Below the pieces are notes generated by a model. The model did no database searches. It saw nothing but the letters and a program-made list of their open reading frames with translations, and was not told the DNA's origin. The position numbers and the translations under genes are program-made. 64,000 nt of DNA from Watersipora subatra (lineage: Eukaryota > Bryozoa > Gymnolaemata > Cheilostomatida > Watersiporidae): assembly GCF_963576615.1 (NCBI RefSeq), contig NC_088711.1, positions 18,074,182-18,138,181 of the forward strand, given 5' to 3'. Within the stretch, counting starts at the first letter, position 1; each line of letters starts with the position of its first letter. Below are positions 37,731 through 64,000 of the stretch, piece by piece.

Positions 37731-37732
37731 TA

Positions 37733-39597
37733 CAGGAGATGGGTGGTATGTAGGTATAGGAGATATTACAGGAGATGGGTGGTATGTAGGTATAGGTGAC
37801 AATATAGGAGATGAGTGGTATGTAGGTATAGGAGACATTACAGTAGATGGGTGATATGTAGGTATAGTAGACATTACAGGAGATGGGTGGTATGTAGGTA
37901 TAAGAGACATTACAGGAGATGGGTGGTATGTAGGTATAGGAGATATTACAGAAGATGGGTGGTATGTAGGTATAGGAGATATTACAGGAGATGGGTGAAA
38001 TGTAGGTATAGGAGATATTACAGGAGATGGGTGGTATGTAGGTATAGGAGACATTTCGTGAGATGGGTGGTATGTATGTATAGGAGACATTACAGGAGAT
38101 GGGGGTATGTAGGTATAGGATATATTACAGTAGATGGGTGGTATGTAGGTATAGAAGACATTACAGGAGATGGGTGGTATGTAGGTATAGAAGACATTAC
38201 AGGAGATGGGTGAAATGTAGGTATAGGAGACATTACAGGAGATGGGTGGTATGTAGGTATAGGAGACATTACAGGAGATGGGTGGTATGTAGGTATAGGA
38301 AACATTACAGGAGATGGGTGGTATGTAGGTTTAGGAGACATTACAGGAGATGGGTGGTATGTAGGTATAGGAGATATTACAGGAGATGGGTGATATGTAG
38401 GTATAGAAGATATTACATGAGATGGGTGGTATGTAGGTTTAGGGGACATTACAGGAGATGGGGGTATGTAGGTATAGGATATATTACAGTAGATGGGTGG
38501 TATGTAGGTATAGGAGACATTACAGGAGATGGGTGGTATGTAGGTATAAGAGACATTACAGGAGATGGGTGGTATGTAGGTATAGGGGACATTACAGGAG
38601 ATGGGTGGTATGTAGGTATAGGAGACATTACAGGAGATGGGTGGTATGTAGGTATAGAAGACATTACAGGAGATGGGTGGTATGTAGGTATAGGAGACAT
38701 TACAGGAGATGGGTGGTATGTAGGTATAGGAGACATTACAGGAGATGGGTGGTATGTAGGTATAGGAGATATTACAGGAGATGGGTGGTATGTAGGTATA
38801 GGAGACATTACAGGAGATGGGTGGTATGTAGGTATAGGAGACATTACAGGAGATGGGTGGTATGTAGGTATAGGAGACATTACAGGAGATGGGTGGTATG
38901 TAGGTATAGGAGACATTACAGGAGATGGGTGGTATGTAGGTATAGGAGACATTACAGGAGATGGGTGGTATGTAGGTATAGGAGATATTACAGGAGATGG
39001 GTGATATGTAGGTATAGGAGACATTACAGGAGATGGGTGGTATGTAGGTATAAGAGACATTACAGGAGATGGGTGGTATGTAGGTATAGGGGACATTACA
39101 GGAGATGGGTGGTATGTAGGTATAGGAGACATTACAGGAGATGGGTGGTATGTAGGTATAGAAGACATTACAGGAGATGGGTGGTATGTAGGTATAGGAG
39201 ACATTACAGGAGATGGGTGGTATGTAGGTATAGGAGACATTACAGGAGATGGGTGGTATGTAGGTATAGGAGATATTACAGTAGATGGGTGGTATGTAGG
39301 TATAGGAGACATTACAGGAGATGGGTGGTATGTAGGTATAGGAGACATTACAGGAGATGGGTGGTATGTAGGTATAGGAGACATTACAGGAGATGGGTGG
39401 TATGTAGGTATAGGAGACATTACAGGAGATGGGTGGTATGTAGGTATAGGAGACATTACAGGAGATGGGTGGTATGTAGTTATAGGAGACATTACAGGAG
39501 ATGGGTGGTATGTAGGTATAGGAGATATTACAGGAGATGGGTGATATGTAGGTATAGGAGACATTACAGTAGATGGGCGGTATGTAGGTTTAGGAGA
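37733..39597. repeat. 36-bp minisatellite, about 52 copies, with higher-order structure
   Basis: The unit contains 'ggagatgggtggtatgtagg' followed by 'tataggagacattaca'. A junction variant (gatgggggtatg ... ggatatattacagtag) occurs at 38098 and again exactly 360 bp later (10 units). The pattern taagagac / ggggac / gaagac at 38547 recurs 504 bp later (14 units), showing block duplications. Since 36 is a multiple of 3, long ORFs open on both strands (434 codons plus, 371 codons minus). Variant positions change amino acids freely and no conserved flanking exon exists, so they are not called as genes. Confidence 0.95.
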
Positions 39598-40365
39598 CTC
39601 ACTGGCAGCCGCTCCATCATCACTCTTTTCATACTATATTCTTTATTCATGAATCATGTTCTTTTCGATAATCTTTTTTTTTGTAGAAGTTTTGTTCATG
39701 TTTCAGGTAACTCTAAACGTAGTGTCTTGAAATTTATTTTCAATGTTGGGTTACATATTTGATCAAATTTTATATTTAAGGTAGATCAAGGTTTGGCCGT
39801 AGTTCTGATTGTCCTAGTGAGTTCGAGACTGATAAGCCAAACTTTTCTCCAAGTTTTTGAAGTTGCTGTAGCGAAACATGTATTTGTCATTTTATGACAC
39901 TGACTTCTATTAATAGATTCATATATGTTTTTGTAAATTTTTTTAGGTCCGAGTTATTTCAATTATTCATAACTTATGCAGGAGTTGTCTTTACTCTCTC
40001 TGAAGTTGTTACCTGCGTAGTCAGTAAGTACCAGCTGTTTATATGATTAGGTACCATTTCTAAATCTTTAGTTATGCGCATGGCAAGTTTCCAATGTGTT
40101 TTGCGAGCATTATCCCTGATCTTGGTTAACTTGCAAATAATTCACATAAAAACTGAGTGTATGTTCTCCAAGCTTTGGGTGGATGGCGTGGAAGGCAGCG
40201 TTAATGTGAACCACTATTTGCAACAGACTGGGTCTATTACATGCATATTCTATAACCTGCTTTATAGTTTTTCTTTTCAAAAATGAACTTGCACAAAATT
40301 TGAGTATATTCTATCAAAAATTATTGGTATTTTCCTATCACTGGGGATTGTTTTTTGATGTTTAA

Positions 40366-42547: not shown

Positions 42548-43062
42548 TAAATCTCAAACCATAATGTATCTCAAACCATAATGTATCTCAAATCATAATG
42601 TATCTCAAATCATAATGTATCTCAAACTATAATGTATCTCAAACCATAATGTATCTCAAACCATAATGTATCTCAAACTATAATGTATCTCAAACCATAA
42701 TGTATCTCAAACCATAATGTATCGCAAACCATAATGTATCTCAAACCATAATGTATCTCAAACCATAATGTATCTCAAACCATAATGTATCGCAAACCAT
42801 AATGTATCTCAAACCATAATGTATCTCAAATCATAATGTATCTCAAACCATAATGTATCTCAAACCATAATGTATCTCAAATCATAATGTATCTCAAACT
42901 ATAATGTATCTCAAACCATAATGTATCGCAAACCATAATGTATCTCAAACCATAATGTATCTCAAACTATAATGTATCTCAAACCATAATGTATCTCAAA
43001 CCATAATGTATCTCAAACCATAATGTATCTCAAACCATAATGTATCTCAAACCGTAATGTAT
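42548..43062. repeat. 17-bp minisatellite (atctcaaaccataatgt), about 30 copies
   Basis: Units differ by C/T at the 'accat/atcat/actat' position and by 'tcgcaaa' variants. The array lies between two right-end fragments of the palindromic MITE. The unit core 'ctcaaaccat' resembles the MITE's 'cctcaaacatc', so the MITE end may have seeded the array. Confidence 0.93.
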
Positions 43063-43160
43063 CAATGCCTCAAACATCAAGAACAATCACAAACGATAAA
43101 AAATAACAGCACTTTCTGAAAAAATCTATTAAAATTTTGTGTAAGTTTATCTTTAACCCT
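43063..43160 (+). mobile_element. Right-end fragment of the palindromic MITE
   Basis: 'gcctcaaacatcaagaacaa', 'cacaaacgataaaa' and 'aaaattttgtgtaagtttat' match the right arm of the copy at 47674-48283 and of 42400-42480. Only the last 95 bp or so are present. Confidence 0.65.
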
Positions 43161-44251: not shown

Positions 44252-47200
44252 GCCTGTCATCTGATCGCTTATAGCTGCGCTGTTACGATGGCTTATGAGA
44301 AGAACCCGGTCAGTGTTTTAATGGAGCATGGACAACGACACTCCAGAGCGGTTGAATTTCAGGTGGTTTGTGCTTTGGGAGAAAGTCATAAACCAAGGTA
44401 AACCTAATCGTCTGGGCAGAAAATCTACTTGCTGTCATATCTTGCCATTTGTGTACTGCAGCTGCTTGTAATAGTGCTTCAGAATTTTAGTGGTATGGAA
44501 TGTCACGTGAAATGGCAACAGATGATAATATCAGTCATTTTTCCTTCTTTTTTGTAGAATTTATTGGAAATTTTACTATGTGCTTTAAAAACAAATCAAC
44601 AGCTCTGTTTCAGCTGTCTCTATCGTACTTGAAAGTTCAAGTTTCCTTTCAGTTGTATAGTAATTGTGATTTAAGTCCGTTGAAATCGGTGTATGACTAT
44701 TCTTCTTAACAGGTTTTTGTGCCGGTACAAAGTTGGCTCTCGTGCCTTCCCTGCTGTATTTGGCTCCAAAAAACAGGAGGCGAAAAAAGAGGCTGCAGTA
44801 TTAGCTTTAGAGGGATTAAAATTGCTTAAGGCTGTCAACAGAACGTTTGTGAAGTACAGTGACAGAAATGTTCCTGAGACCGTGGTGGAAGCGAGCTCTA
44901 CAGCTGGTATGGATCCATCCCTTTTTACTTCTTGTAAGCCAAATGAGATAAAGCCTATGCAGCCCCGCCTACCTCGAACCAGCATCACAGGATCTAGTCT
45001 TGCTAAGGCTGGAATGGACAAACAGAGTATTCCAGCAAGCATGGCTTGGCAAGGCAATGGCTACAGTCCGACCGGGGTGGAACAGCCTGTTTTAAATACA
45101 GACCGCAAAACCATGAAAGCGTTTGACCAAAAAACAATTGATGAACTACAAGCACGGCATAAAGCTTATGTTTTAAATGACAATATTAATAAATTGGAAG
45201 CATTAGGAAGGGGCCAAAGTAGTGGCTACCGGACGAAAGCATTACCCGCCCAAACCCGGGATAGTTCTAATAAAGAAACTGTTACCTCATCAAGCGCTGC
45301 AGTCCAATTACAACCCACTCCCTTTCTAGCATCTTCTAATCAGATAAATCCTTCCTCTCTAGACTTAAATGTTGCATTGGCTTCACTCAAACTTGAAGAA
45401 TCTCGCAATGATTTAGACGCCAAAGATAGCCGAGCCACTCCATCCCCTTCGTCTTCGTGTGAAGGACAGAATGCTATCAGCATCTTGCATGAGCGAGGTC
45501 AGAAGGAAGGCAGGCGACCCATGTTTCAAGTTTTGTCGCAGCGTGGGCCATCACATCAGCCAACGTGAGTGTATTGATGCCCTGATGATCTCACTACACT
45601 AATTGTGTAGTGAAGTGCATACTAGTGCTGTGTTAGGTTGCATGTGGTAAAACTTTTACGGTATAACCGATCATATGATATATTTGATATCGATTGTGAA
45701 TTGTGAATTGTGAGTGAATGTTTGTAATAGTTTTGGCATGTTTTGTGTAGCCACCTTCATGTCTGACTTTATTTGTAGCTCTGATAGACTTCCATAGATA
45801 AGTGAAAATAGACAGCACGGGTTTCCATAGACAACTGTGAGCACTTGAAATAATCCCACCACATTTATCGTGCAACATATGCTCTCATTATTCAACTAAT
45901 TATCATTTATTCTAATCAATTAATTGCAAATTTTTTGACCTTTTCACAATTATTTTTTATCGAAATGCTACATATGTGGATGTACCTCTGTGATTGTAGC
46001 AAACACTAATTAGGCCTAATTTTCCATTTGATCTACTACCAAAAATTTTTATACACAAAGTTACAGCAAAACCATTTCTTTATAAATAAACTAAGAGAGT
46101 TTCATCCAATAATTGATAAACAGCAGTACCTCTACTTACAAAGGTACCTCTACTTACAGTGGTACCTCTACTTACAGAGGTACTTCTACTTACAGAGGTA
46201 CATCTACTTACAGAGGTACCTCTACTTAGAGTGGTACCTCTACTTACAGAGGTACCTCTACTTACAGAGGTACCTCTACTTACAGTGGAACCTCTACTTA
46301 CAGTGGTACCTCTACTTACAGAGGTACCTCTACTTACAGAGGTACCTCTACTTACAGTGGTACCTCTACTTACAGAGGTACCTCTACTTACAGAGGTACC
46401 TCTACTTACAGAAGTTCCTCTACTTACAGAGGTACCTCAACTTACAGTGGTACCTTTACTTACAGTGGTACTTCTACTTAGAGTGGTACCTTTACTTACA
46501 GAAGTACCTTTACTTGCAGTGATATTTTTTATTTTCAAACGGCTCTTGAAGTTATAAAACATCTCTTTGAAAACAAAACCACCATTTGTTGCGCCAAAAA
46601 ATCGGAATAGAAAGAGAGCAAAAGTTGTGAAATATATATTCTTTTTATTCACTTTTCATATTTACTCATGTATATTGTATATGCATACTAGGTGAATTCT
46701 CGGCGTTGCACGGGTAATAAGATATTGAAAAAAATTTTATTTGTCAAGTTTCTTTACCCAATGAATGTACCTTAAGCTAGAACTATAATGAGACCTGTTA
46801 TTATAACTTAAGCCAGTGTTAGGAATAAAGATTGGGTCATGATCTTCAAGTGTGCTAGCTGAAGCGTGAGTATTTTAACCACTCGGCATTAAAGATTAGC
46901 GGGTGCATAAGTATGTTCACAATTATTCATTGCTACAGCCAGCTGGATACGTAGTCTAGTGATTTAGTATGTTTGTCTGCAGGCCTTGAGGTTCTGCGTT
47001 CAAATCCAGTGTGAACTGGAGTTTTTATCTCTATAACTTTATTGCTATAATTGGACACACGAATGACAGACTAATGGACAGATTTATATACAGATTTATT
47101 ATATTGTAGCCTATGAGTATGTGTGCGAGACAATATAGGTTGTAATGTAGGCTGTACTCTATTTTAATTGTTCGAACATGGCCCAGTCTGTATCATTGGA

Positions 47201-50200
47201 AGCTAATGAGGATTGCCTATATATACAAATCTGATGGTAGGATGCAAACATGTCAATTTTTATCTTTTGATTTGATTCAGGGTTTATTACAGCTTGCTTT
47301 GGTCTTTACTTTTAACCAATATACTATACAGTATCTTGTTCAACCTCCATGCTGGAGCAACGTTATGCTGCAACATGTACAAATAATCCCTCTGGTACGG
47401 GTATCAGTATTTCTGTTCAGCTATTCTTTCTAAATGGCAACTTCCTGACATTAGCTATGACTCATGCACGCTGATGCATATCTTGCATATCTGTAACTGA
47501 AATGTTCTCGCTGTTAATATATATATATACAATTTGAGTCACTTGGGACTGTTCTAAACCTGTATATTACAGATTAGTTCCTTCTTGTGGTGTGGATAAT
47601 AAGTTTTCTACTTTTTCTCATTTTGTCAAGTCTTCCTACAATGAGTTTGGTTGCTGCTCCAACGGTTTTTCACAAAGATGAACTTACACAAAATTTGATT
47701 ATTTTTTATCAGAAAGTATCAGTATTTTTCTATCATTCGCGATTGATTGTTATGTTTGAGGTGATCGGACTGTGACGATGTTTCAAGATTAAAATCAGCA
47801 AAACTTGATCGATGTTCAAATGCTCTGATCAAGCTAATGTGTGATTATGATGTCTATAGGTGCAAAGAGACTGACAGAAACAAGATTTGTAATGCTTCCA
47901 CTTGAACACAATAGACGATATCAACTACCGCAACTAGTGACGTCATTTCGCATATATTTTTGCGAAATTCAATAGCCGATATCCATTATAGCAATGATAG
48001 CAACCAGTAATGTCATTATAGCAATGATAGCAACCAGTAATGTCATTTTAGCACACATTTTTCTTCCGAGCATTTTAACTGCTATAAAGTTTTGTCAATT
48101 TTAATCTTGAAGAAACATTCTGGCAGTCAGATACCTTCAACATCAGCAACAATCACAAGTAATAGAAAACATAGAAACATTCTGGCAGTCAGATACCTTC
48201 AACATCAGCAACAATCACAAGTAATCGAAAAACGCAAGTATTTCCTAATAAAATTGTCTAAATTTTGTTTAGGGTCATCTTTAATTAATATCATTTGATG
48301 TGTTTTAATTTTAATGTAAAGCAATAGGTGAAGTTGTCCACTCTTTAACATTGCCTCTGGCTAAATGTTATGAGCATCAGTGATACTAGTAGCTGAGAGG
48401 TAGAATGCTTGTTGATATAAAACATAATCTTTCACAGTTAAGAAAAGCTTATCCTACTGGTAATAGTTGTACTAAAATAATGTTATGAGATGTATGTTAG
48501 AGACGGCTGATACAAATTATTTTACAACCTGAGATAGTGGAAATCATTATTTCGAGTCTTCAGTTACATGTGTGTTGTAAGGGTTAGTAGCTTCATGATG
48601 TGATATTAATAATATAGGTTTTTTGAAATTCTCAATCAGCATACTGACAACTTCTGGAAAATCATAGCAAAAACAGTCGTTAGTGCATCTTTGTTATGCG
48701 CTTTATTATAAATGATCATGCAGTTTCTCTTCTGGAGAAACCACATTTGGTACAGCCTAGTATCACATCTCAAACAACAGTATTTCTTGCTATGGAACCT
48801 CTGCTTGGGCAAATGGACATTTTAATTATGTCCATATGAAAGTCCCCTATTTTTACACTTTCTGTTATTTTAGTAAATTGAATTAATTACTTTTTATATG
48901 TTAAAAGTGTTTCCACAGTTTATAAGGTTTGTACTTTGTTCGAAACAACTTATTATATATAATAATTATATATTATTATATATAATAATGTAATAATAAC
49001 TATATTGTATACAATATGAGCCACTACAAAAGTTAGTAGCGGCTCATATTGTAAACACTTATAGTATGTGCTGCAGGTTTGAATGCAGATGTCAATATGG
49101 TGATGTTGAGGCGACTGTTAGTGCAGCAAGCAAAGAGAAAGGCAAGCGTGAAGCTTTCAGACAAGTGCTTGCACATCTTAACAGAGCTCAACTAGACAGT
49201 CCGAAGGCCAATGAATTGTGAGTAGCGCTATGAGCTTTGTCGATTTATATGCCCCAAAGCAGACGTTATATACATTTAGTTAGAATGTGCAATTATTCAA
49301 TAATGCTTTTGTGGTTCTTTTCACTTTTCATTGTTTTTTTGTTCTTGTGGTACCCTTTAGGAAGATACCTTCAACTTTCCTTGTGGTACTTTTTAAGGAA
49401 ATAACAGCCACTTACTTTCTGGTACCGTTTAAAGAAATACCATATACTTTCCTTCTGGTATCTGTTAAGGAGATGTCATCCACTTTTTTTGGTACTCTTA
49501 AAATTAATTCTATCCATTTTTATGATACAGTTTAAAGAGAAAGTATTCGACATTTCTGCATAATCAATTCTTGGCCTCTATTCTTGGTAGACATTACCGC
49601 ACTAGACATAGCATTACGCATTAAAGAAGTTTTCATTCCATACAGATGGACCGTCGGGTCATTATATGCAATATTTTGTGGAGCTGCCTTATATATGGTT
49701 ACTAGATGTTAGTGAGGCAGGACACTTTTTACTACTATAATTGATAGTTAAGGGGCTCTCTCTGACTGCCAAATTTCTATAGAAGAGCCGAAGAGCTTAG
49801 ACTTACTGCGTCTGCTTATGATCATAACAAACCGTCTTATATAATTATTGCATTACATAAAAAGTGAGAAGGTTTATAGCGGCTCATTTTTTCACTAATT
49901 TGTAACATTTTGTGCTAATAAACTTAAAAATTTCTAATTTTAGCTAACCTCAAACTGAAAACAACCACTTTTCACGAGTCCATTCTATAAGTTTGTATCA
50001 ATATTACCAAGCAACATTCCAATGCAGTTAATATGTCTCTTGAATGTACTCTTAGGTGAATATATGCAAATAAAAAGGCAAAGTGTTATTTTGCAATTTA
50101 GAAAATTATATTAAACTGATAACGCCAAGAAATTTAGTAACTATTAAAACAAATGAAGTTAATTTAATTAATATGAGAATTACATGCTTATTTGGATGGC

Positions 50201-53200
50201 TTTGCTTATTCTCTCTACAAAATAGCTATATAAGTATATATATAAACATGTATATTGACACTGACTTTTGGTGTTATATATCAACTAGTACCCTGGCAGT
50301 CTAGTATGCTGTGAGAGATCATCCGGCGTGCCGATAACAGACAGAAAATGCACAATTATTCAAAAATGCCAGAAGGTGCTTGATTGGTGCATTCGTTAGA
50401 GTATCAATCTACTAAGCTGATTGTCCAAGTTTGAATCGTGTTTATGGCAACCTTTAACCTCAACCTTTAACCTCAACCTTTAACCTCAACCTTTAACCTC
50501 AACCTTTAACCTCAACCTTTAACCTCAACCTTTAACCTCAACCTTTAACCTCAACCTTTAACCTCAACCTTTAACCTCAACCTTTAACCTCAACCTTTAA
50601 CCTCAACCTTTAACCTCAACCTTTAACCTCAACCTTTAACCTCAACCTTTAACCTCAACCTTTAACCTCAACCTTTAACCACAGCTCGTGTCTGTGGACA
50701 GACACGTCTCTCATTATAATAAAGATTACGAGACTTTCAAGTTTTTGCACTGTGGCATGCACTGTGATGATCCCACCTATGTAGCGTTAAAATACATACA
50801 CTGCCAATGATCCCACCTATGTAGCGTTAAAATACATAGACTGCCAATGATCCCACCTATGTAGCATTAAAATACATACACTGCCGATGATCCCACCTAT
50901 GTAGCATTAAAATACATACACTGCCGATGATCCCACCTATGTAGCATTAAAATACATACACTGCCGATGATCCCACCTATGTAGCATTAAAATACATACA
51001 CTGCCGATGATCCCACCTATGTAGCATTAAAATACATACACTGCCAATGATCCCACCTATGTAGCATTAAAATACATACACTGCCGATGATCCCACCTAT
51101 GTAGCATTAAAATACATACACTGCCGATGATCCCACCTATGTAGCATTAAAATACATACACTGCCGATGATCCCACCTATGTAGCATTAAAATACATACA
51201 CTGCCAATGATCCCACCTATGTAGCGTTAAAATACATACACTGCCAATGATCCCACCTATGTAGCATTAAAATACATACACTGCCGATGATCCCACCTAT
51301 GTAGCATTAAAATACATACACTGCCGATGATCCCACCTATGTAGCATTAAAATACATACACTGCCGATGATCCCACCTATGTAGCATTAAAATACATACA
51401 CTGCCGATGATCCCACCTATGTAGCATTAAAATACATACACTGCCAATGATCCCACCTATGTAGCATTAAAATACATACACTGCCGATGATCCCACCTAT
51501 GTAGCATTAAAATACATACACTGCCGATGATCCCACCTATGTAGCATTAAAATACATACACTGCCGATGATCCCACCTATGTAGCATTAAAATACATACA
51601 CTGCCAATGATCCCACCTATGTAGCGTTAAAATACATACACTGCCAATGATCCCACCTATGTAGCATTAAAATACATACACTGCCAATGATCCCACCTAT
51701 GTAGCGTTAAAATACATACACTGCCAATGATCCCACCTATGTAGCATTAAAATACATACACTGCCAATGATCCCACCTATGTAGCGTTAAAATACATACA
51801 CTGCCAATGATCCCACCTATGTAGCATTAAAATACATACACTGCCAATGATCCCACCTATGTAGCATTAAAATACATACACTGCCAATGATCCCACCTAT
51901 GTAGCGTTAAAATACATACACTGCCAATGATCCCACCTATGTAGCATTAAAATACATACACTGCCAATGATCCCACCTATGTAGCGTTAAAATACATACA
52001 CTGCCAATGATCCCACCTATGTAGCATTAAAATACATACACTGCCAATGATCCCACCTATGTAGCATTAAAATACATACACTGCCAATGATCCCACCTAT
52101 GTAGCATTAAAATACATACACTGCCAATGATCCCACCTATGTAGCGTTAAAATACATACACTGCCAATGATCCCACCTATGTAGCATTAAAATACTTACA
52201 CTGCCAATGATCCCACCTATGTAGCATTAAAATACATGCACTGTGATGATCCCACCTATGTAGCGTTAAAATACATACACTGCCAATGATCCCACCTATG
52301 TAGCGTTAAAATACATACACTGCCGATGATCCCACCTATGTAGCGTTAAAATACATACACTGCCAATGATCCCACCTATGTAGCGTTAAAATACATACAC
52401 TGCCGATGATCCCACCTATGTAGCATTAAAATACATACACTGCCAATGATCCCACCTATGTAGCATTAAAATACATACACTGCCAATGATCCCACCTATG
52501 TAGCGTTAAAATACATACACTGCCAATGATCCCACCTATGTAGCATTAAAATACATACACTGCCAATGATCCCACCTATGTAGCGTTAAAATACATACAC
52601 TGCCGATGATCCCACCTATGTACATTAAAATACATACACTGCCGATGATCCCACCTATGTAGCATTAAAATACATACACTGCCAATGATCCCACCTATGT
52701 AGCGTTAAAATACATACACTGCCGATGATCCCACCCATGTACATTAAAATACATACACTGCCGATGATCCCGCCTATGTAGCATTAAAATACATACACTG
52801 CCGATGATCCCACCTATGTAGCGTTAAAATACATACACTGCCGATGATCCCACCTATGTAGCGTTAAAATACATACACTGCCGATGATCCCACCTATGTA
52901 GCATTAAAATACATACACTGCCAATGATCCCACCTATGTAGCGTTAAAATACATACACTGCCGATGATCCCACTTATGTAGCATTAAAATACATACACTG
53001 CCAATGATCCCACCTATGTAGCGTTAAAATACATACACTGCCGATGATCCCACCTATGTAGCGTTAAAATACATACACTGCCAATGATTCCACCTATGTA
53101 GCGTTAAAATACATAGACTGCCGATGATCCCACCTAAGTAGCGTTAAAATACATACACTGCCAATGATCCCACCTATGTAGCGTTAGAATACATACACTG

Positions 53201-56200
53201 CCAATGATCCCACTGATGCAGCGTTAAAAATATACACTGCTAATTATCAGGCACAGGGACAAAACCTGTTTGTCACTCTTCTAGATTCCATGGCAAATGA
53301 GCTAAAACTGTCTGTGAAACTGGATGATTTTAGCTTCCACAACCCATTTTTGGTCCTTGACAAATAGCAGAGTATTACCGTGACGAAAGTTTAAATGACT
53401 TTTGTCTGCTTCAAACCCGACATCAATAATGTTTTAAAGCACTAAAGTTATCATATTTAATCAAATACTGTCTGCAGTTGAGGCCAGCAAGGTTTTGTTT
53501 TATCTATGAAAATGGCATTACCATTGTTCTAACCCTTATCTTTTGTTGTACTCGGCGTACATGATAGCAGTGATAATGTCTGATAGTGGTGGCAGAAATG
53601 TCCTTGTCATAAAACTTACCCCGCAGGGGATTTACCCTTTTTACACTGGTAAATCTCCTGATACGCATTCCATAGGTTGTTGACTGTAGCTAGTTTCTCA
53701 ATCTTATTATTTATTCAACCTATAGGGACTGTGTATTGTAAGTCAAACTTTGGGATTTATGTGAAGCTCATGCGTCGGTGTAGCAATGCTTCATGCGCTC
53801 ACCTGTTGAATAAACTTAATCAAACGGACTCGTTGTTTGTATTTATCGTCAACTGTGTCTCGCAAAAGTTTTCAAGTTCAAAATGTTCCAAAGAAAAAGG
53901 CGTATTTCGAAGAACGAAGATGATTCATCCCATTCATCGCCTAAACGCTGTCGCGAGGATGACATTAGTACGTTGCCTACATCGTCAGAATCGGTCGAGC
54001 AAAAGCAATTTGGCACGCTTAAACCTTCTAACACTCCCACAGTGTTTAGATTGCGGTAGGTTATATTTCTTCAGTTCATAGAAATAGATAGCAAATTACT
54101 GTGTGTGTTGCATCTCTGCGATGCCTTTCCGTTGTAATGTCATAACAAGTCTTTCTGTTGTAGTGTCATAACAAGTAGTCTTCCTGTTGTAGTGTCATAA
54201 CAAGTCTTGTCAAAGTGTCATAACAAGTCTTCCTGTCAAAGTGTCATAACAAGTCTTCCTGTTACAGTGTCATAACAAGTCTTCCTGTTGTAGTGCCATA
54301 ACGAGTCTTCCTTTTGCAGTGTTATAACGAGTTTTCCTGTTGCAGTGTCATAACGAGTCTTCTTGTTGCAGTGTCATAACAAGACATCCTGTTGCTGTGT
54401 CATAACAAGACATCCTGTTACAGTGTTATAACAAGTCTTCCTGTTGTAGTGTTATAACAAGTATTCCTGTTGCAGTGTTATAACAAGTATTCCTGTTGCA
54501 GTGTTATAACAAGTCTTCCTGTTGCAGTGTTATAACAAGTCTTCCTGTTGCAGTGTCATAACGAGTCTTCCTGTTGCAGTGTCATAACAAGTGGACAAAA
54601 GGATGGTGATGACAATAAAAACCCGATAAGTTGTGTGATGGAACTCGGCAACAAGCTGGGTATCACACCAGACTTTGAGTGCACACAGCTGTCTATCACA
54701 CCTGTTAGTAGGTAGGTAAAATACTTCTTTACAGGTACATAAACACACATTCCCTTACTAACTAGCTATTTCACTCGCATGTTTCCTATCAGACGGTAGT
54801 TGGGTTAAGGCTGGTTCACACTATATCGCTGTATCTCGGCGTTGATGCCACAATACTTCGGTGATCGTCAATGATAACCATGTTCACACTATCACAATCC
54901 GATCCGCGTTTGCATCAGCAAATACTCCGTGACAATTATCTTTTTAGATTTTCTCGAAAAATCTCTTTGTTTTCACATGCGATAATCAAAAACTATTCCC
55001 ACAGCGACTATTATAAACGGATATAAATAAATCACTCTATCTACGACCGCGAACTACCATCGCCGAAATGGTTCACATTTGAAAGATGATCGTCGATGCT
55101 CAGCGAAGCATCGAGAAAGTTTGACAGCTGCGAACTTTCCCGACGTGTCCGAGTTGCTTCGTCGATGCCATCAATTCCACATAATCGATGATGAACGCTG
55201 AAAGGAAAACGCTGACAAACGGCAACATAGTGTGAACCGGCCTTTAGTCACAGCTGATCCACGACATATTGTCATATGTCGAAGTTGTCCTCTCAGCGAT
55301 TATTCATTGACTATGTGCGCCATAAACCGACGGCATCGTCGGTTTATGGCCATATTGTTGGGTCGTCGATATGTTGGGAAATATTGCGGCTGTCAAACTT
55401 ATTTGAATGTTTGCTATTCTTTTTAAAAGATTTATTCTGGAAAATTATTGTTTTATTCATCGTCAGGTTTGAAGGGTATTGTGTGTTTGGAAAGCAACGG
55501 TTTGGTCCAGTGGAAGCGCAGAACAAGAAGCTCACAAAAACTGAAGCGTTCAAGTTGGCGTATCAGCAACTAAAAGATAGCTCAAGGATCCAGGGCGAGC
55601 TTGCGAGAGAAACTCACTCTATCAAAATGAGAGATTCTCCCTTACCTTTGTCAGACACGTCACTAGGGCTAACCACTGTCAACACGGAAGGTATGTTAGG
55701 CCATAAAGAGGGTTTTCTTTTTTTATTGTGTATTGGTGTGTTGGTATGTATTTCTTAGGCTATATCTAAAGGTTTTGATACATAACAATAATGCAAATAA
55801 TAATAAACTTTCATCTTCTATAAGTTTCAACAGTTATTATCTGCTTGCTTGTGAACAGCCGCAGTTCATTCATTGACATACACCCATAAACATTGACATA
55901 CACCTATAAACATTGAAATACACCTATAACCATTGACATACACCTATAAACATTGGCATACACCTATAAACATTGACATACACCTATAGACGTTGACATA
56001 CACCTATAGACGTTGACATACACCTATAACCATTGACATACACCTATAAACGTTGACATACACCTATAAACGTTGATATACACCTATAGACGTTGACATA
56101 CACCTATAAACGTTGACATACACCTATGAACGTTGACATACACCTATAGACATTGACATACACCTATAGACATTGACATACACCTATAAACGTTGACATA

Positions 56201-59200
56201 CACCTATAAACATTGATATACACCTATAACCATTGACATACACCTATAAACATTGGCATACACCTATAAACATTGACATACACCTATAGACGTTGACATA
56301 CACCTATAGACGTTGACATACACCTATAAACGTTGACATACACCTATAAACGTTGATATACACCTATAGACGTTGACATACACCTATAGACGTTGACATA
56401 CACCTATAGACATTGACATACACCTATAGACGTTGACATACACCTATAAACGTTGACATACACCTATAAACATTGATATACACCTATAGACGTTGACGTA
56501 CACCTATAAATGTTGACATACACCTATAGACATTGACATACACCTATAGACATTGACATACACCTATAAACGTTGACATACACCTATAAACATTGACATA
56601 CACCTATAAACGTTGACATACACCTATAGACGGTGACATACACCTATAGATGGTGACATACACCTATAAACATTGACATACACCTATAAACGTTGACATA
56701 CACCTATAAACGTTGACATACACCTATAAACGTTGACATACACCTATAAACGTTGACATACACCTATAGACGGTGACATACACCTATAGATGGTGACATA
56801 CACCTATAGACATTGACATACACCTATAGACATTGACATACACCTATAAACGTTGACATACACCTATAAACATTGACATACACCTATAAACGTTGACATA
56901 CACCTATAGACGGTGACATACACCTATAGATGGTGACATACACCTATAAACATTGACATACACCTATAAACATTGACATACACCTATAAACGTTGACATA
57001 CACCTATAGACGGTGACATACACCTATAGATGGTGACATACACCTATAAACATTGACATACACCTATAAACATTGACATACACCTATAAACGTTGACATA
57101 CACCTATAAACGTTGACATACACCTATAGACGGTGACATACACCTATAGATGGTGACATACACCTATAAACATTGACATACACCTATAAACGTTGACATA
57201 CACCTATAAACGTTGACATACACCTATAAACGTTGACATACACCTATAAACGTTGACATACACCTATAGACGGTGACATACACCTATAGATGGTGACATA
57301 CACCTATAAACATTGACATACACCTATAGACATTGACATACACCTATAAACACTTTTGTTGCTTGTTGCATCAGCCCATTTAAGTCAAACATCAATCAAT
57401 CTTGGTTGGTCTGCTCTGTTGGTGCCTTGAAATAATTGTGTACAATGCTACAGTTCCGCACCAGCTGGTTTGACCTCTAGCTAGACTTCCCAGTCAATAA
57501 CTATTTAGCAGAGGATACATGGAAATTGTGTAGAGTTGTCCCTATAATGACATTGTGATAAAGACACTAGCTAAGTAATAAATTAAATCTTTGATCTCTA
57601 GAGACTGTATGCAGTTAATTCACCAAATAAATTCAGGTTTCTAAAGCCACTAGTCAACCTACATTTAGATTACTAATGTTGGCAAAGTCAATTTAGAAAA
57701 CAATATGAAGTAGAATTGTCTCTTGTCAACATGCGCTTAGGGTTAGTCAAACCTATTTATGATCATCTCAGTATAAGGATTTTGCTACATGCAATGCTCA
57801 TTTTTGGAAATACTTTACTCTACATTCAAATTAATTCCAGTATGCGGCACTCGAAGTTTCTTGAAGCATTGCCATTTGGTAAGTGGGTGAAAGGCTGAAT
57901 GTGAAAAGTAAACAAAAAATGTGAAAGGTATAAAAACCAAAAGTACCAGCGAGGGGTATCAGCTAATTAGTTTCAAATTCACTCAGACCAGGTTGAAGTA
58001 AGTTGCACCGCATGTGTTTAACGCTACCTCTGCTTGTCTACCTTCTATTTCCAGTTCTACCTCACATTCCATCCAGCATTTTATCCCACGTGCGAATTCC
58101 AATTCGACCAAGGATGGAAATTAGAACCGCTCAAATTCCCCGAGCGAAAGTTCAATTTCAGTTCGAAGAAGGTTTTTGTTCCTAGATTTTAATCGCTATA
58201 ACTGGGCACACAAATGACAGACAGACATTCACATTTATATATATCGAATAAAATTAATAAGAATATAAACTAAGAATATAGAATAAGAATATACAAGTAG
58301 AATACTTAACTAGTTTGTTGTTTTTACATATCTCTTTTACATTGCATTTTAACGTTAAGTGTAATTAGCCGTAGGAATTATGGAGGAGTTATAGTAGGCT
58401 TTTAGGCTGTATAACCAATTGATTGAACTATAATGCATTTTTATTGAAATGTTTGATCTAGCATACAACAGGTTTCAACATACGAAGCAGTTCCAGGAAT
58501 GAATTGACTTTGTATTTAAAGGTTTGACTGTACTTGTATTTCTCTCAGCTGACCAATCAGGAGTTTCTGATAGGAAATGTACATATCTATAGATAAGATG
58601 ACATGCATCCAGTATCTGGAAAGTGACACTTTGCGCTTTGCACAGCACAACAGGAAGCTCGTGGAGTTGTCTGCCTACTATTATAATCATATGCCTGTCC
58701 GTAAAACTTTTTACATGTTTTGCTTACCTTGTTCCAAACCAGTTATTGTGTTAGCTTTTTTCTAGAAGCTCCAGCATTAGTTACATTATGCTTGCTGAAG
58801 TAGGCTGTACTGTACCTTCTGACATATTATAATTATTTGCATCTTCATGCATGTTGTAAACAAATTTTATAACCTCCATTCTATTTTAGGTGTTCGCAAC
58901 TTGTTAAGCCAGAAGCATCCAGTAAGTTCCATTCTTGAGTATGCGCAGGCACGACACGTATCTGCATTGTTTGACGAGGTAGATGATAGTGGACCTGCTC
59001 ATGTTAGAAGGTGAGACTATTGCTGCTTTAGATACTGAATAGCGCCTTCTGCAACATCTTTGCTTCTGCACCTAAGTACCATTTTAATCATTGCATGTTG
59101 GCAGCATTTCTGTCTCTCCACTTTGGCAGCATTTCTGCCTCTCTACTTTGGCAGCATTTCTGTCTCTCCACTTTGGCAGCATTTCTGTCTCTCCACTTGG

Positions 59201-61092
59201 GCAGCATTTCTGCCTTTCTGCTTTGGCAGCATTTCTGCCTCTCCGCTTTGGCAGCATTACTTTCTCTCCACGTTGGCAGCATTTCTGCCTCTCGACTTTG
59301 ACAGCATTACTTTCTCTCCACTTCGGCAGAACTTCTGCCTTTTTGCTGTGGCAGCATTTCCGTCTCTTTACTTTGACAACATTTCCGTCTCTTTACTCTG
59401 ACAGCATTTCTGGATTTCTTTATCAGCATACCTGCTGCAGCAGTTAAAATAGCTATTACTCTGTCTCTCTGTAAGTTTAGATCTAGAATCAACTGGATTG
59501 GTATGAAACAGAATTGCCTGCACGCTTTCTGAATTATACCCAATCTTTACAGCGCATAGACTGTTAGATCTATTATACCCAATCTTTACAGCGCATAGAC
59601 TGGTAGATCTATTATACCCAATCTTTACAGCGCATAGACTGTTAGATCTATTATACCCAATCTTTACAGCGCATAGACTGGTAGATCTATTATACCCAAT
59701 CTTTACAGTGCATAGACTGGTAGATCTATTATACCCAATCTTTACAGCGCATAGACTGTTAGATCTATTTAAATATAAATAAACATAAATATTGAAACGG
59801 ATGCATTTTTTCTTATATATTTTTCTAACTTTAACGTTTTCTAACGTTTAAGTAACTTTGACATGTGCAGAATGTTGTCTGGAAACGCTAGTATCGTTAT
59901 ATTTTATTTGAAGATGTTACTGGTTTGTCCTTATCTTTGTCAAATTATTCATCTAATGCATAAACAATCAGGTGGAAGGATTCGTAATAATTGACAGCTT
60001 TTACTTGCCTTAAGTTTTGCATCACTTCAAAGCAAACCAATGAGAAGAGTCAGATTTTTATAGAGTAGATGGTATCACGCATCACGAGTGGTCTGAAAAA
60101 AGTTATAATTTTATTTTAAATTGTGAATAAAAAATGTTTCAAAGTCTATGATTCGCAAATAGCAGTAGCAAAATACTATCTTTTCTATACTGCCCAAAGG
60201 GTTCTAGTTTGTCTTGGCATTTGATGACTTTTGTTTAAACATACATGTAGTTGTACTGTTTATTGGCTAAGAGATACTGTTGATTTAGGTATGTGCTATT
60301 GGTTTTCCTTATGACCATTACACTGCCTGTATATCTCTCATTAGGTCATTATTATTTTTGTAGTATTCCTCAAATGAACCCTTCATGAAGTTTTCCCCAA
60401 TCTTGGTTGTAGGAATCATGGTCTTGACCGCACTCTGCTCCTGTTTCTTATTCTGACTCATAACTTTATTCTGTTGTACACTTTGGATTTCACGTTAATA
60501 GCTGTCATCTATATAAGTTGTTTCTTTAGTTTTACCTATAGATGTATTGTTGATGGAACACCCTACCCATCAGCCACAGCTCGAACAAAGAAGGATGCAA
60601 AGAAGCATGCCGCTGAGTTAGCTCTCCGTGTGATAGCGGGCACCACGACACCAGCCACAGATGCTACAGCACCTGCATCGGGTGCCACAGCAGCAGTCTC
60701 TGATGTCATGGGGTCAGCTAGTAGCTATACTACGGTGTGTTACCTATTCGCCTATCCATAGTACTCACTCACTGCTTTGGCTTAGCGAGCTACTCACAGA
60801 TCATGAGCTAGCATACATGTATGCTGAAGTTTAGCGCTCCCTTGTTACATAAATGCATTGCAGATTTATAAGATATTTATTAGCAATTCGAAATTGAAAG
60901 ACATGATGCAAATATTACCCATCAGCAATGGGAAGGCAATGAGATTATGCTAGAACAATAGGTACTAATACTACTTGTAGGGAAAACTAAAAATTCACTA
61001 CTTTCATTCAATGCCAGTAGGTATACATTTGTAGTAATGCAGCACATGCATGCAGCTGCTTAAAATATTTTTAGTCGAGTTTTTGATTGATC

Positions 61093-61124
<32 letters not shown>

Positions 61125-63979
61125 TGATTATATTTTGATTTTGATTTGATCTTTATCAACTCTCTTTTTCATTTGCACCGCTGACAGCTTTGACCTGCCA
61201 CAAAAGTCTCACAACTGATTAACATTAAGTGTTGCGGTTTGATTGTTTTTTAATGTTCTAATGATAGCATTGCATCTAGAGGATTAATATGCAGTTATTG
61301 ATATTACACTGTATATAGTCACACAAAATGTATGTAAAATTACACTATTTTGCATTTTTCTTGACCAGATCTAGACCCTGGTACCCTTGACCCTTGACCC
61401 TGGTACCCTTGACCCTTGACCCTGGTACCCTTGACCCTTGGTCTTTATCTTTTTTTCTATTTTTCTCTATTCAAGTTTGTTTTCAGTCTGAATAATGCTT
61501 TGAAATGCTTGAAGTATCTGTGAAAGTTATAAATACTGTTTGAATGGACCTTCTATAATCATTATCTATGCTGCTTCATTCATATGTAGAGCGCTCTTAC
61601 TTTTACATTATCAACATCTTAGCCTAGTCTTACTCATAGATGTCTGTAGGAGTAATAGCAGGTAGTAAGTAGCAAGTTTAACCTAGTTCGAGGTCAAGTT
61701 TCATGTCTTAAGCATTTTCCTCACAAGCTTTCTGGTTGAATTGATGTATATTTTCACTTATACGTGGCCTAAAAACTGTTATTTTTATATGGTACTGCCT
61801 GTTATTGATGCCCCTTGAATGTACTTATTGGGTAATACTGAGGAAAGGGCATGATGTAGCTTTAGAGGTTAGACTGTGATTCACCGGAGCTGTTGGTAGG
61901 CTAATGGTATGCTCTTGCTTGACTCGTAGTTTTACAACATGTAGGCTGAGGGAGGAGCAGGCTCACTAAGTTCTGCCAGTGCAATGCCTTCTTTTCCAAG
62001 AACAGTTCCTCAAAAGAAAAGTGATCTAATAGCTAATGAAGTGTTTAAGAAGTTTGCTGAGGTGAAGGTTAACTGTCCAGCTGACCTTGGCAAGGTCATC
62101 CTTGCTGGCTTTATAATAGAGAATACTACCCAGTCAACATTCATTGTTGTTTCCCTGGGCACAGGTCTGTTTTGTTTTCTTTAATGTGGGTTTTCAGATG
62201 TGTTTACTTCTCGGTAATGCATGTTCACCTTGGTATGGATATCTGATTACCATAAAGCCCTTTAATCCAGGGCATGTGTTGCTGAGAATTGTGTAACACA
62301 TAATTATATGTTTATGTGTGAATGGAAAATGAAGTTTCCATTCAACTATACCATTCAACATTACGGAGAAGTGAACACTACTATATAGTAGTATTCACTT
62401 CTCTGTGATATGTGCTTACCTTGGTACAGTAGTGTTTACATTTCTGTAATGTGTGCTTACCTTGGTACAGTAGTGTACTTTTTTAAACCATTTTACTTGC
62501 TGTGTGATTTTGCATGTGTATCGTGCTCTCTCTCATTTGGCTGTTTCTATCGACACAGGTGTATAGTTAATACCTAGATTATTTTTACTGCACCATGGTG
62601 CTCATGAAGTATAGTTAATAGCTAGATTATTTTTACTGCACCATGGTGCTCATGAAGTATAGTTAATAGCTAGATTACTTTTACTGCACCATGGTGCTCA
62701 TGAAGTATAGTTAATAGCTAGATTACTTTTACTGCACCATGGTGCTCATGAAGTATAGTTAATAGCTAGATTACTTGTACTGCACCATGGTGCTCATGAA
62801 GTATAGTTAATAGCTAGATTACTTTTACTGCACCATGGTGCTCATAAAGCCAGTACTGAACTTTGTAGGTCAGAGAACAAATATAGAAATACATCATTGT
62901 AGACTGATATTTGGTTAACCTGTGTTCCCAGAGATTTTAGAACTCAGCCACAAATGTCCATGTTGATAACCATAACAATCTTAGATTTTTCTGTGCATCA
63001 AAATGATTAGATTGTTTCATTGTTACTTGATACTCAAATATCTTGCATACTGATTATAATTAATACTGACATAGCTGCATGGCAGAAGATTGTTGAGGAC
63101 TCTCAGTAATAATTTTGTCATAATTCTGTTTTCACAAATCAAAGGCGAAACCCAAATGGTTGTTACTATCTTGTTACTGCATAATGTAACCTCTAAAATT
63201 TTGCTAATTGTTCAGAAATATTTTGAATATCTGGCACAGAGGCCTCGAGTTTCTAGTGATTTTCTGAACATAAGAGATTCTTATGGGGGCACACTTTGGG
63301 TACACAGTGAATGCTTCTCCTTTCTGAACCAATCTGTTGCTAATACCTTAGCTATTACCTTAACATAATACTGAGCATACATTTAATCTGAGAAAAGTGC
63401 AATGTTATTGATGTAGTATTGACATATTTACACTAGAGTTCTTTGACACACGGTTTTTACTTTTGATTTGAACCAGTATAATATTTGATGGTGTAGTCAT
63501 TGCTGATAAGAAATTAATCCTTGGCACTTTCATTTCCTGTAAAATTATTAGCGAGCCAAGTTACTTGCAAATAAAATTGTAGCAGCTCTATAACACTAAG
63601 AAATAAGAAACGTTGAATTGCTAAAAAAAATTCAGGGGCTGCCCTTAACAATGGATTGTGAAAATCATTTCAACTCAGCATAAAGGCACGTGCACTTAGT
63701 GCTATTCAAGTCATGCTATCTCTCATTAATGAATAGATTAATCACTCACAAACCTGTGAACATAACCTTAGTGGGCTTGATGACCGAGTGATGCCACAAT
63801 TTTTTCAGGGCAAACATTGTTGCTATACAACAAATTGAACACCACAATCTGGTGTAGTTTCTATTGGTGATTGTTTTACATGTAGGCAACAAGTGTTTGT
63901 CGGGGAAATACTTGTCCATACAAGGCACTGCTGTCAATGATTGCCATGCTGAAGTGATTGCAAAAAGGGGCTTACACAG
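44252..63979 (+). CDS. ADAR: ADAR1-type double-stranded RNA adenosine deaminase (5' and central part; 3' end beyond window)
   Basis: This enzyme converts adenosine to inosine in duplex RNA. Exons: 44252-44397 (ATG at 44288), 44713-45564, 49077-49217, 54580-54711, 55467-55690, 58890-59010, 60542-60734, 61945-62164 and 63886-63979. All junctions are GT-AG and all phases agree, giving 695 full codons from the ATG. Domains: dsRBD1 residues about 5-72, a Ser/Pro/Gln-rich linker, dsRBD2 about 290-356, dsRBD3 about 382-450, dsRBD4 about 496-558, deaminase from about 617. VVSLGTGNKC and [13 protein letters not shown] match ADAR1 more closely than ADAR2; His685 should bind zinc and Glu687 transfer protons. 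The next donor (CACAG|GTGAG) leads out of the window. The first exon has a splice acceptor (tttcatag) and is open upstream of the ATG, so more N-terminal exons, possibly with a Z-alpha domain, may exist; none was found. Confidence 0.95.
44288..44910 (+). CDS. ADAR: ADAR dsRBD1 (exons 1-2)
   Basis: The fold starts [20 protein letters not shown] in exon 1 and continues [20 protein letters not shown] in exon 2. [11 protein letters not shown] forms the basic N-terminus of the second helix that contacts the RNA phosphates. The intron splits the domain after the HKPR turn, the same relative place as in the other three dsRBDs. That suggests duplication together with the intron. The ATG has A at -3 and G at +4, a good initiation context. 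Confidence 0.93.
45452..49217 (+). CDS. ADAR: ADAR dsRBD2 (end of exon 2 and exon 3)
   Basis: [20 protein letters not shown] begins the domain, and exon 3 supplies [20 protein letters not shown]. The RNA-contacting helix reads SKEKGKREA. It is weaker than the canonical KKxAK, so this domain may bind RNA less tightly. The long exon-2 linker between dsRBD1 and dsRBD2 is about 215 residues, rich in Ser, Pro and Gln, and probably disordered. The intron 45565-49076 holds an 18-bp array, a SINE and a MITE. Confidence 0.9.
46119..46519. repeat. 18-bp minisatellite (acctctacttacagaggt), about 22 copies, in an ADAR intron
   Basis: Unit junctions form AGGTACCT palindromes. Each unit has CTTACAG followed by AGGTAC, resembling a 3' and a 5' splice site in tandem. 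LYLQRY- and LLTEVP-repeat ORFs over it are shadows because 18 is a multiple of three. It lies in the intron 45565-49076. Confidence 0.93.
46686..47095 (+). mobile_element. tRNA-derived SINE-like element
   Basis: Head 'gaattctcggcgttgcacgg', tRNA-like part with GTAGTCTAGTGATTTAG (box A region) and GCGTTCAAATCC (box B), tail 'gctataattggacacacgaa'. It is in the same orientation as ADAR, inside its second coding intron. Confidence 0.75.
47674..48283. mobile_element. Palindromic MITE, intact copy
   Basis: Inverted arms of about 150 bp. The left starts AAAGATGAACTTACACAAAA and the right arm's complement starts AAAGATGACCCTAAACAAAA. The middle contains 'caactagtgacgtcatttcg', and a local duplication of 'gcaatgatagcaaccagtaa'. 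The right arm has a tandem duplication of about 70 bp (aacattctggcagtcagata near 48113 and 48177). It is in an ADAR intron. Other copies or fragments are at 19370, 40279 and 43063. Confidence 0.75.
49218..50288. other. ADAR intron 3, proximal part
   Basis: Between the exon 3 donor (TT|GTGAGT) and the SINE at 50289. It holds a short imperfect repeat of 'ggtaccttt-aaggaaat' type at 49345-49500. I see no exon. Confidence 0.45.
50289..50720 (+). mobile_element. SINE-like element, second family, carrying a 13-bp array
   Basis: 'accctggcagtctagtatg', 'ctgtgagagatcat' and 'atgcacaattattcaa' match 21797-21865. A tRNA-like segment (gattggtgcattcgttagag ... gtttgaatcgtg) follows. After it come 17-18 copies of aacctttaacctc (50453-50682), then 'gtctgtggacagacacg', corresponding to the element's end. 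The array expanded inside the element. Confidence 0.7.
50765..53240. repeat. 40-bp minisatellite, about 62 copies, in ADAR intron 3
   Basis: The unit contains 'gatcccacctatgtagcatt' and 'aaaatacatacactgccaat'. Two variable sites dominate: gccAatg/gccGatg and gcAtt/gcGtt. Runs of the same combination recur (G/A blocks at 50880-51600, alternating A/A and A/G at 51640-52170), so block duplications have occurred. Single-base deletions appear near 52620 and 52740. There are no spacers, so it is not CRISPR-like. It makes up over 2 kb of the intron 49218-54579. Confidence 0.96.
53241..54125. other. ADAR intron 3, distal part
   Basis: The ORF at 53677-54081 (134 codons, Ser/Cys/Leu/Arg-rich) has no recognisable domain and no phase-compatible splice context with ADAR exons 3 and 4, so I do not call it. 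Nothing else stands out. Confidence 0.4.
54126..54591 (+). repeat. 26-bp minisatellite made of splice-acceptor units, ending at ADAR exon 4
   Basis: About 18 units of tcttcctgttgcag followed by tgtcataacaag. Each has a pyrimidine tract and CAG (variants GTAG, ACAG, AAAG). The acceptor that keeps the ADAR frame is the last one (CAG at 54577-54579), and 12 bases of the final unit are exon sequence. Splicing to the preceding CAG would add 26 bases and meet TAA within the next unit. Confidence 0.93.
54580..55690 (+). CDS. ADAR: ADAR dsRBD3 (exons 4-5)
   Basis: Exon 4 (54580-54711) gives [20 protein letters not shown]. Exon 5 (55467-55690) gives [20 protein letters not shown] with [10 protein letters not shown] as the basic helix. 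Exon 4 starts at the last CAG of a 26-bp minisatellite, so its first residues (VITS) are encoded by repeat-derived DNA. The TT|T phase fits exon 3 exactly. The intron between the two exons contains a 440-bp MITE. Exon 5 ends in a Ser/Thr-rich linker. Confidence 0.92.
54805..55246. mobile_element. MITE with TAAGGCTGGTTCACACTAT-type termini
   Basis: Left end AAGGCTGGTTCACACTAT; right end is the complement of AAAGGCCGGTTCACACTATG. Inside, subterminal inverted segments (ccgatccgcgtttgcatc, gcatcgagaaag) and higher CpG content contrast with the AT-rich intron. It is about 440 bp with no ORF. The target duplication is not clear. It lies in the ADAR intron between exons 4 and 5. Confidence 0.7.
55319..55350. 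repeat. Short perfect hairpin
   Basis: Arms gccataaaccgacg and cgtcggtttatggc (14 bp each) around the loop gcat, about 115 bp upstream of ADAR exon 5. In the pre-mRNA it would form a stable stem just before the branch-point region. Confidence 0.85.
55873..57352. repeat. 20-bp minisatellite (gttgacatacacctataaac), about 74 copies, in an ADAR intron
   Basis: Variants are at aac/gac and gtt/att/ggt. The pair 'gacggtgacata'-'gatggtgacata' recurs at about 56630, 56770, 56910, 57010, 57130 and 57270. The spacings of 100-140 bp show amplification in blocks of five to seven units. It lies in the intron 55691-58889. Confidence 0.95.
57353..58889. other. ADAR intron 5, distal part with a SINE tail fragment
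   Basis: Unique sequence with no exon seen. At 58165-58225 the block 'tttttgttcctagattttaa' plus 'cgctataactgggcacacaa' and 'atgacagaca' is the tail of the first SINE family. The upstream part back to about 58010 may be the rest of a diverged copy. Confidence 0.45.
58890..60734 (+). CDS. ADAR: ADAR dsRBD4 (exons 6-7)
   Basis: [20 protein letters not shown] in exon 6 and [20 protein letters not shown] in exon 7, with a canonical [13 protein letters not shown] helix. This domain aligns best with the last dsRBD of vertebrate ADAR1, which begins with an LLEYA motif and ends just before the deaminase. Exon 7 continues with an Ala/Thr-rich linker. Its donor is ACG|GTGTGT. Confidence 0.92.
59098..59418. 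repeat. 25-bp minisatellite (tttggcagcatttctgcctctccac), about 13 copies
   Basis: Starts about 90 bp downstream of the ADAR exon 6 donor. All three plus-strand frames are open across it because TAG/TAA are absent from the unit, giving overlapping Ser/Leu/Phe-rich ORFs that are shadows. The strand is pyrimidine-rich and includes gcag trinucleotides after T-rich tracts, again resembling weak acceptors. Confidence 0.9.
59534..59767. repeat. 39-bp tandem repeat, 6 copies
   Basis: The unit 'ttatacccaatctttacagc' plus 'gcatagactggtagatcta' is almost perfect, with G/T alternation at ctgGtag/ctgTtag in neighbouring units. It is in the same ADAR intron as the 25-bp array. Confidence 0.92.
60735..61944. 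other. ADAR intron 7
   Basis: Holds an (ATT)n microsatellite at 61087-61125 and a three-copy 22-bp repeat (gaccctggtacccttgaccc) at 61375-61440. No exon seen. Confidence 0.6.
61945..63979 (+). CDS. ADAR: ADAR deaminase domain, N-terminal part (exons 8-9)
   Basis: Exon 8 carries the start of the deaminase fold ([14 protein letters not shown], then [10 protein letters not shown] and IVVSLGTG). Exon 9 carries the first catalytic motif, NDCHAEV. The two zinc-binding cysteines and the inositol-hexakisphosphate-binding residues of the family would be further downstream and are not in the window. The acceptor of exon 8 is CATGTAG|GCT. The intron 62165-63885 holds a 48-bp tandem repeat. Confidence 0.93.
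62565..62850. repeat. 48-bp tandem repeat, 6 copies, in ADAR intron 8
   Basis: The unit contains 'tagttaatagctagattact' and 'ctgcaccatggtgctcatga', the latter with the palindrome CACCATGGTG. Copies are nearly identical. The rest of the intron (62165-63885) shows no exon. Confidence 0.92.
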
Positions 63980-64000
63980 GTGAGAAGATATGAATCGCTG

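Follow-up and report, generated by a model that had tools for sequence, protein, structure and literature searches.

A putative ADAR-family deaminase gene of Watersipora subatra with four predicted dsRNA-binding domains, the third of them degenerate

The locus raises the question of whether a row of dsRNA-binding domains (dsRBDs), followed on the same strand by the start of an adenosine deaminase, belongs to one ADAR or to two neighbouring genes. According to Grice and Degnan, dsRBDs number one or three in ADAR1-like proteins and three in certain ADAR2-like ones, and no protein with four is described in the available part of that work (PMC4323055). Rosani et al. report, in the text at hand, 48 ADAR-like genes altogether and, in oyster, four ADAR-like proteins that differ in how many binding domains they carry (PMC6651903). 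No dsRBD counts are given in the available portions of Zhang et al. (PMC9989829) or of a planarian study (PMC8797187). Among the matches listed by an open-access literature search with a limited set of wordings, no title or start of an abstract named an ADAR with four dsRBDs; another such search brought up a paper on Staufen. With four predicted dsRBDs versus one to three in the relatives compared, the domain layout described here appears to be real and unusual for an ADAR.

We consider it probable that the window, by which we mean the whole stretch of 64,000 nucleotides that was analysed, contains one ADAR-family adenosine deaminase gene whose long transcript runs E1-E2-E3-E5 to E10 and onward, encoding four dsRBDs and then a deaminase with the HAE motif; the RNA contacts and the activity of the predicted enzyme are what we infer. 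Our model has ten exons on the + strand, with ends picked by hand for fit to the frame and to GT-AG, and extends from the ATG of E1 to the end of E10 (44288-63979), the same bounds as in an earlier note on this DNA. When E1-E2-E3-E5-E6-E7-E8-E9-E10 are joined, they give 2099 bases or 699 codons without a stop, with GT-AG at all eight joints, which were selected to fit. Together, frame and splice sites suggest that all of these exons lie in one transcript.

The first half of dsRBD1 lies with the ATG in E1 (44288..44397), which ends in SHKP, and its second half is in E2 (44713..45564), followed by some 210 residues of linker and the first half of dsRBD2. The second half of dsRBD2 is in E3 (49077..49217), which ends in phase 2 at ATT/GTGAGT, whose TGA would be a stop if left unspliced. 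The degenerate dsRBD3 is divided between E5 (54580..54711) and E6 (55467..55690), and dsRBD4 between E7 (58890..59010) and E8 (60530..60734), E6 and E8 each continuing into a linker; E9 (61945..62164) carries linker and the N-terminal start of the deaminase region, and E10 (63886..63979) the active-site motif of A_deamin. The linker between dsRBD1 and dsRBD2 is contained in a single exon, and a Pfam scan of the 699-residue protein assigned no domain to it. Splice sites were scored with a matrix of assumed splice-site frequencies, by which the acceptors of E8 and E9 are poor (top 23.4% and top 10.7% of all AGs, respectively) and the sites of E3 middling (donor top 5.3%, acceptor top 4.9%). An acceptor-like AG upstream of the ATG (top 2.9% of AGs) would give an in-frame exon start at 44252, so that a further coding exon before E1 is possible. 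The four introns inside the dsRBDs (E1/E2, E2/E3, E5/E6 and E7/E8) are all in phase 2 and occupy the same alignment position, just before the phenylalanine with which the second strand of the dsRBD fold begins; the earlier note's observation that all four domains are split at about the same place is thereby borne out. The remaining introns are in phase 2 (E3/E5), 1 (E6/E7), 0 (E8/E9) and 1 (E9/E10).

At the level of sequence, the count of four predicted dsRBDs, the third of them degenerate, is firm. A local HMM was built from nine solved dsRBDs, whose rows were aligned jointly with the domains of the window and thus lean slightly towards them, and was run on 1922 stop-to-stop pieces of at least 20 residues from both strands. 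Nine matches exceeded 6 bits. Eight of them are the half-domains that were expected, standing in order, the ninth is a chance piece at 6.2 bits, and no fifth dsRBD was found among these pieces; the weakest half-domains were the second of dsRBD2 (12.5 bits, E 0.011) and the first of dsRBD3 (12.9 bits, E 0.0069). After splicing, dsRBD1 to dsRBD4 scored 66.6, 51.1, 38.2 and 80.7 bits, values reached by none of 5000 shuffles of each. The Pfam profile PF00035 gave 38.3, 34.4, 15.0 and 56.6 bits, respectively (cut-off 23), and matched the whole 699-residue protein in three stretches; in the dsRBD profile search by which the earlier note had proposed to check its count, three of the four domains thus pass and dsRBD3 fails (E 0.038). 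That note's claim of an ADAR-family gene with four dsRBDs is upheld by the eight half-domains in order, followed by the start of A_deamin.

To locate the RNA-contact motifs, the four domains were mapped onto ADAR1 dsRBD3 through one MAFFT alignment. The GPxH loop, GPPH in ADAR1 dsRBD3, reads GESH in dsRBD1, GPSH in dsRBD2, SITP in dsRBD3 and GPAH in dsRBD4, and the lysines of KKxxK read KQK, KEK, KKK and KKK, respectively. By this alignment dsRBD4 is fully canonical in its contact motifs and dsRBD3 is without the minor-groove loop; the loop of PKR dsRBD2 deviates too, as GVHG. As a likely mechanism, we propose that dsRBD4, which adjoins the deaminase and has the full GPxH and KKxxK motifs, would dock the enzyme on the duplex beside the target adenosine, and that dsRBD1 and dsRBD2, with the long linker between them, would bind more distant parts of the duplex and so improve affinity or reach. 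The third domain, degenerate and with no GPxH loop, might bind RNA weakly, or might act as a spacer or in protein contact as type B dsRBDs do.

The deaminase start matched the first 34 of the 329 columns of A_deamin (PF02137) with a score of 47.3 bits (cut-off 27), or 43.1 bits within the 699-residue joined protein, and the HAE active-site motif is present in E10, aligned to ADAR1 and ADAR2. The end of the window cuts the deaminase, and the two further zinc-ligand cysteines and the IP6-binding residues would fall beyond base 64000. The arrangement that defines the ADAR family, a dsRBD N-terminal of A_deamin, is found in one joined frame, with 34 of the 329 A_deamin columns in the window. Among solved structures the best match of the joined protein was ADAR1 (9b83), with 157.2 bits over three stretches, one of which (94.4 bits) spans dsRBD4 into the deaminase; ADAR1 was also the best solved match of dsRBD1, dsRBD3 and dsRBD4, and TARBP2 that of dsRBD2. 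The two-dsRBD chain of ADAR2 matched dsRBD4 at 39.6 bits, compared with 111.9 bits for the three-dsRBD chain of ADAR1. The deaminase start alone (85 residues) scored 54.3 bits with ADAR1 and nearly as much, 49.6 bits, with ADAR2 (PDB 1zy7, 6vff). The long frame holds four dsRBDs and the frame starting at E4 two, exactly two being the number of the ADAR2 class. NCBIfam returned, for the 389-residue frame, RNase III and a seadornavirus dsRNA-binding protein only, both far under cut-off, and for the deaminase piece no match; a search for relatives in viral contigs gave 33 pattern matches, none of which was confirmed.

The ADAR1 class is defined by at least one Z-alpha domain, according to the available text of PMC4323055. 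Neither strand yielded a Z-alpha match in a motif scan, and Pfam found none in 110 + strand pieces of at least 40 residues starting at 27.0-54.6 kb, a set of 112 less two minisatellite frames dropped by hand, from which starts in three minisatellites and lengths above 400 residues were excluded. As a control within this set, dsrm matched one of the four pieces that carry dsRBD halves (E up to 0.1), so that a Z-alpha domain split over exons would escape the scan. In addition, an earthworm ADAR without Z-alpha was named ADAR1 from its deaminase residues, as reported in the part of PMC7762157 at hand, and an absent Z-alpha would therefore not decide the class. The designation "ADAR1-type" is less secure than the earlier note has it: it draws on the dsRBD matches and on a slight edge in the deaminase start, and the upstream scans gave no Z-alpha. 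We regard the gene as a predicted ADAR that is ADAR1-like, its place in the ADAR1 class being likely, if unproven.

In vertebrate ADAR1 (PDB 9b83 and 7zj1, chains that we take to be human), dsRBDs are likewise followed by a deaminase with HAE. The third dsRBD of ADAR1 was matched by dsRBD4 at 43.6 bits, in a match running on into the deaminase, and was also the best match of dsRBD1. Vertebrate ADAR1 has three dsRBDs and two Z-DNA-binding domains (PMC4323055, available text), whereas here there are four dsRBDs and no Z-alpha was found. Nine residues are reported for the dimer of ADAR1 dsRBD3, namely V747, D748, K757, V759, Q761, W768, P770, A771 and C773 (PMC11582362, available text); they correspond to V, D, S, T, R, P, P, S and T in dsRBD4, with three of nine kept (V747, D748 and P770), and to V, C, R, L, R, A, P, A and F in dsRBD1, also with three of nine kept, and in this one alignment neither domain displays the vertebrate-type dsRBD3 homodimer surface. 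ADAR2 has two or three dsRBDs compared with four here; three dsRBMs are reported for squid ADAR2a, and an extra-dsRBM isoform exists in squid (PMC10278661, in the portion available). As here, altered domain counts occur in the ADAR1-class invertebrate enzymes of squid (PMC10278661) and earthworm (PMC7762157), which have one dsRBD each in the accessible parts of these studies, the squid dsRBM lying in a single exon and the earthworm enzyme lacking Z-alpha.

From the shared intron place, the earlier note had inferred that the extra domain arose by duplication, probably of an exon pair. Such a split recurs elsewhere without being general, and it dates no duplication. Fish PKR, a kinase and not a deaminase, has one to three dsRBDs, each encoded by two exons in fugu (PMC2291453, in the text at hand), so that the split is not peculiar to the present gene; the dsRBMs of squid ADAR1 and ADAR2 each lie within a single exon (PMC10278661, available part), which makes the split no fixed ADAR trait and the spread of one split domain in this lineage possible. 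By shuffle z-score, the best match was in all four cases a reference domain of ADAR1 or TARBP2 and not a sister domain: ADAR1 dsRBD3 for dsRBD1, TARBP2 dsRBD1 for dsRBD2, ADAR1 dsRBD1 (weakly) for dsRBD3, and for dsRBD4 both ADAR1 dsRBD1 and, equally close, PKR dsRBD1, its highest raw score being with ADAR1 dsRBD3. In a tree of 13 dsRBD sequences over about 70 columns, dsRBD2 and dsRBD3 form a group with UFBoot 92, both on long branches; dsRBD1 is placed with this pair, apart from all other sequences, at 68, and the remaining nodes have supports of 27-66. This tree is too weak for naming the duplicate, and only dsRBD2 and dsRBD3 may pair. The gene would be either a diverged old multi-dsRBD ADAR1 or the outcome of a long-ago expansion of dsRBD1-3 in this lineage.

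Two further proposals are compatible with a single four-dsRBD gene. The earlier note's suggestion that a lineage-specific duplication of an exon pair produced the fourth dsRBD is in our view possible but less likely than not: it draws on the position and phase of the intron, shared by all four domains, as against the unsplit squid dsRBMs, on the UFBoot value for dsRBD2 with dsRBD3, on an EAF common to these two domains, the remaining 11 in the alignment having AA, and on the three dsRBDs of Tetraodon PKR1, whose weak middle one (E 0.013; PMC2291453, available text) may be compared with dsRBD3 here. However, dsRBD2 and dsRBD3 are identical at 21 of 60 positions, about as either is to other dsRBDs, their mutual z-scores are 8.7-8.8 whereas those between dsRBD2 and TARBP2 reach 22.6, all other branches have at most 68 and the two paired ones are long, and the two-exon dsRBDs of fugu PKR tell against the intron argument. 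Alternatively, dsRBD3 could be a dead remnant, leaving three functional dsRBDs as in vertebrate ADAR1, a reading that we find credible yet do not favour. Its Pfam score under the cut-off and SITP in place of GPxH are what a remnant might be expected to have; both of its halves nevertheless retain open frames and have splice sites that score well, all three lysines of region 3 are kept, and its score on the local HMM was matched by no shuffle.

The main uncertainty is whether a single transcript carries all four dsRBDs, as the locus could also hold tandem genes, E1-E3 encoding a short two-dsRBD protein that ends in ANEL at the TGA, and E4-E10 onward a two-dsRBD ADAR with the usual ADAR2-like count. 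Such a second gene could begin at E4 (53883..54055, + strand), where an ATG starts an open frame of 58 codons that includes two basic NLS-like clusters (MFQRKRR...SPKRCR) and leads to a phase-2 donor in the top 0.6% by the same splice matrix, and from which the frame is open for 389 codons to E10. In the gap of 4.7 kb between E3 and E4 (49.2-53.9 kb), which is rich in minisatellites including an array of 62 copies of 40 bp, there are 44 AATAAA/ATTAAA words, 37 within the 40-bp array and 7 outside it; the nearest relative of dsRBD2, TARBP2 dsRBD1, also fits a separate gene. Against this, the TGA that would terminate the first gene, the next in-frame stop of E3, sits within the GTGAGT donor of that exon in the phase needed by E5, which favours onward splicing, E3 and E5 join without a stop, and dsRBD1 is nearest to ADAR1 dsRBD3 (42.0 bits). 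Tandem genes strike us as improbable.

Within the single gene that we prefer, the reading of E4 that fits best and is simplest is that of a candidate alternative first exon for a two-dsRBD protein, given that E4, like E3, has a phase-2 end that fits E5. E4 may also be a chance frame, and Pfam gave no match to it at E up to 1. As an internal exon E4 was disfavoured: read from its ATG, the E3-E4-E5 frame has 20 stops, and the two in-phase acceptors in the interval searched (53815-53960), for exon starts at 53894 and 53900, had scores of -1.3 and -2.7 bits, which place them in the lower half of all AGs. A second start at E4 may yield a short isoform, perhaps nuclear, in which dsRBD3 and dsRBD4 are the only dsRBDs, and because it could give such a form, the doubt already voiced in the earlier note, that exons 1-3 may belong elsewhere, stands. 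Here we speculate, with more doubt than conviction, that promoter choice sets dsRBD number, the long form having four dsRBDs, one of which has become a protein contact or spacer, and the short, nuclear form having two. If true, dsRBD number would be switched here in the way that Z-alpha is between p150 and p110 of vertebrate ADAR1. Repetition of dsRBDs is said to raise the affinity of ADARs, and dsRBD number to shape substrate choice, in the available part of PMC7762157; a natural four-dsRBD enzyme, perhaps switchable to two, would make this idea testable within one gene.

Splicing to dsRBD3 could be throttled by a row of decoy acceptors. A minisatellite of 18 copies of 26 bp (54127..54592, + strand) consists of tandem copies of the E5 3' splice site (CTTCCTGTTGCAG/TGTCATAACAAG), and of its 16 acceptor-like sites only the last (54580) keeps E3-E5 open, the other 15 giving 1-11 stops. 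A literature search for splice acceptors borne by minisatellites found no related paper. Long and highly regular minisatellites, with units of 13-40 bases in 18-74 copies and 92-100% matches, occur in the introns and in the upstream flank, others being located at 37726-39598, 42551-43063, 50448-50680, 50767-53248 and 55873-57351. Upstream of the ADAR gene, on the opposite (-) strand, 15168-25492 holds exons of a leucine-rich-repeat protein, perhaps LRRC40; four of the seven pieces scanned match Pfam LRR models, two of them above the curated cut-off.
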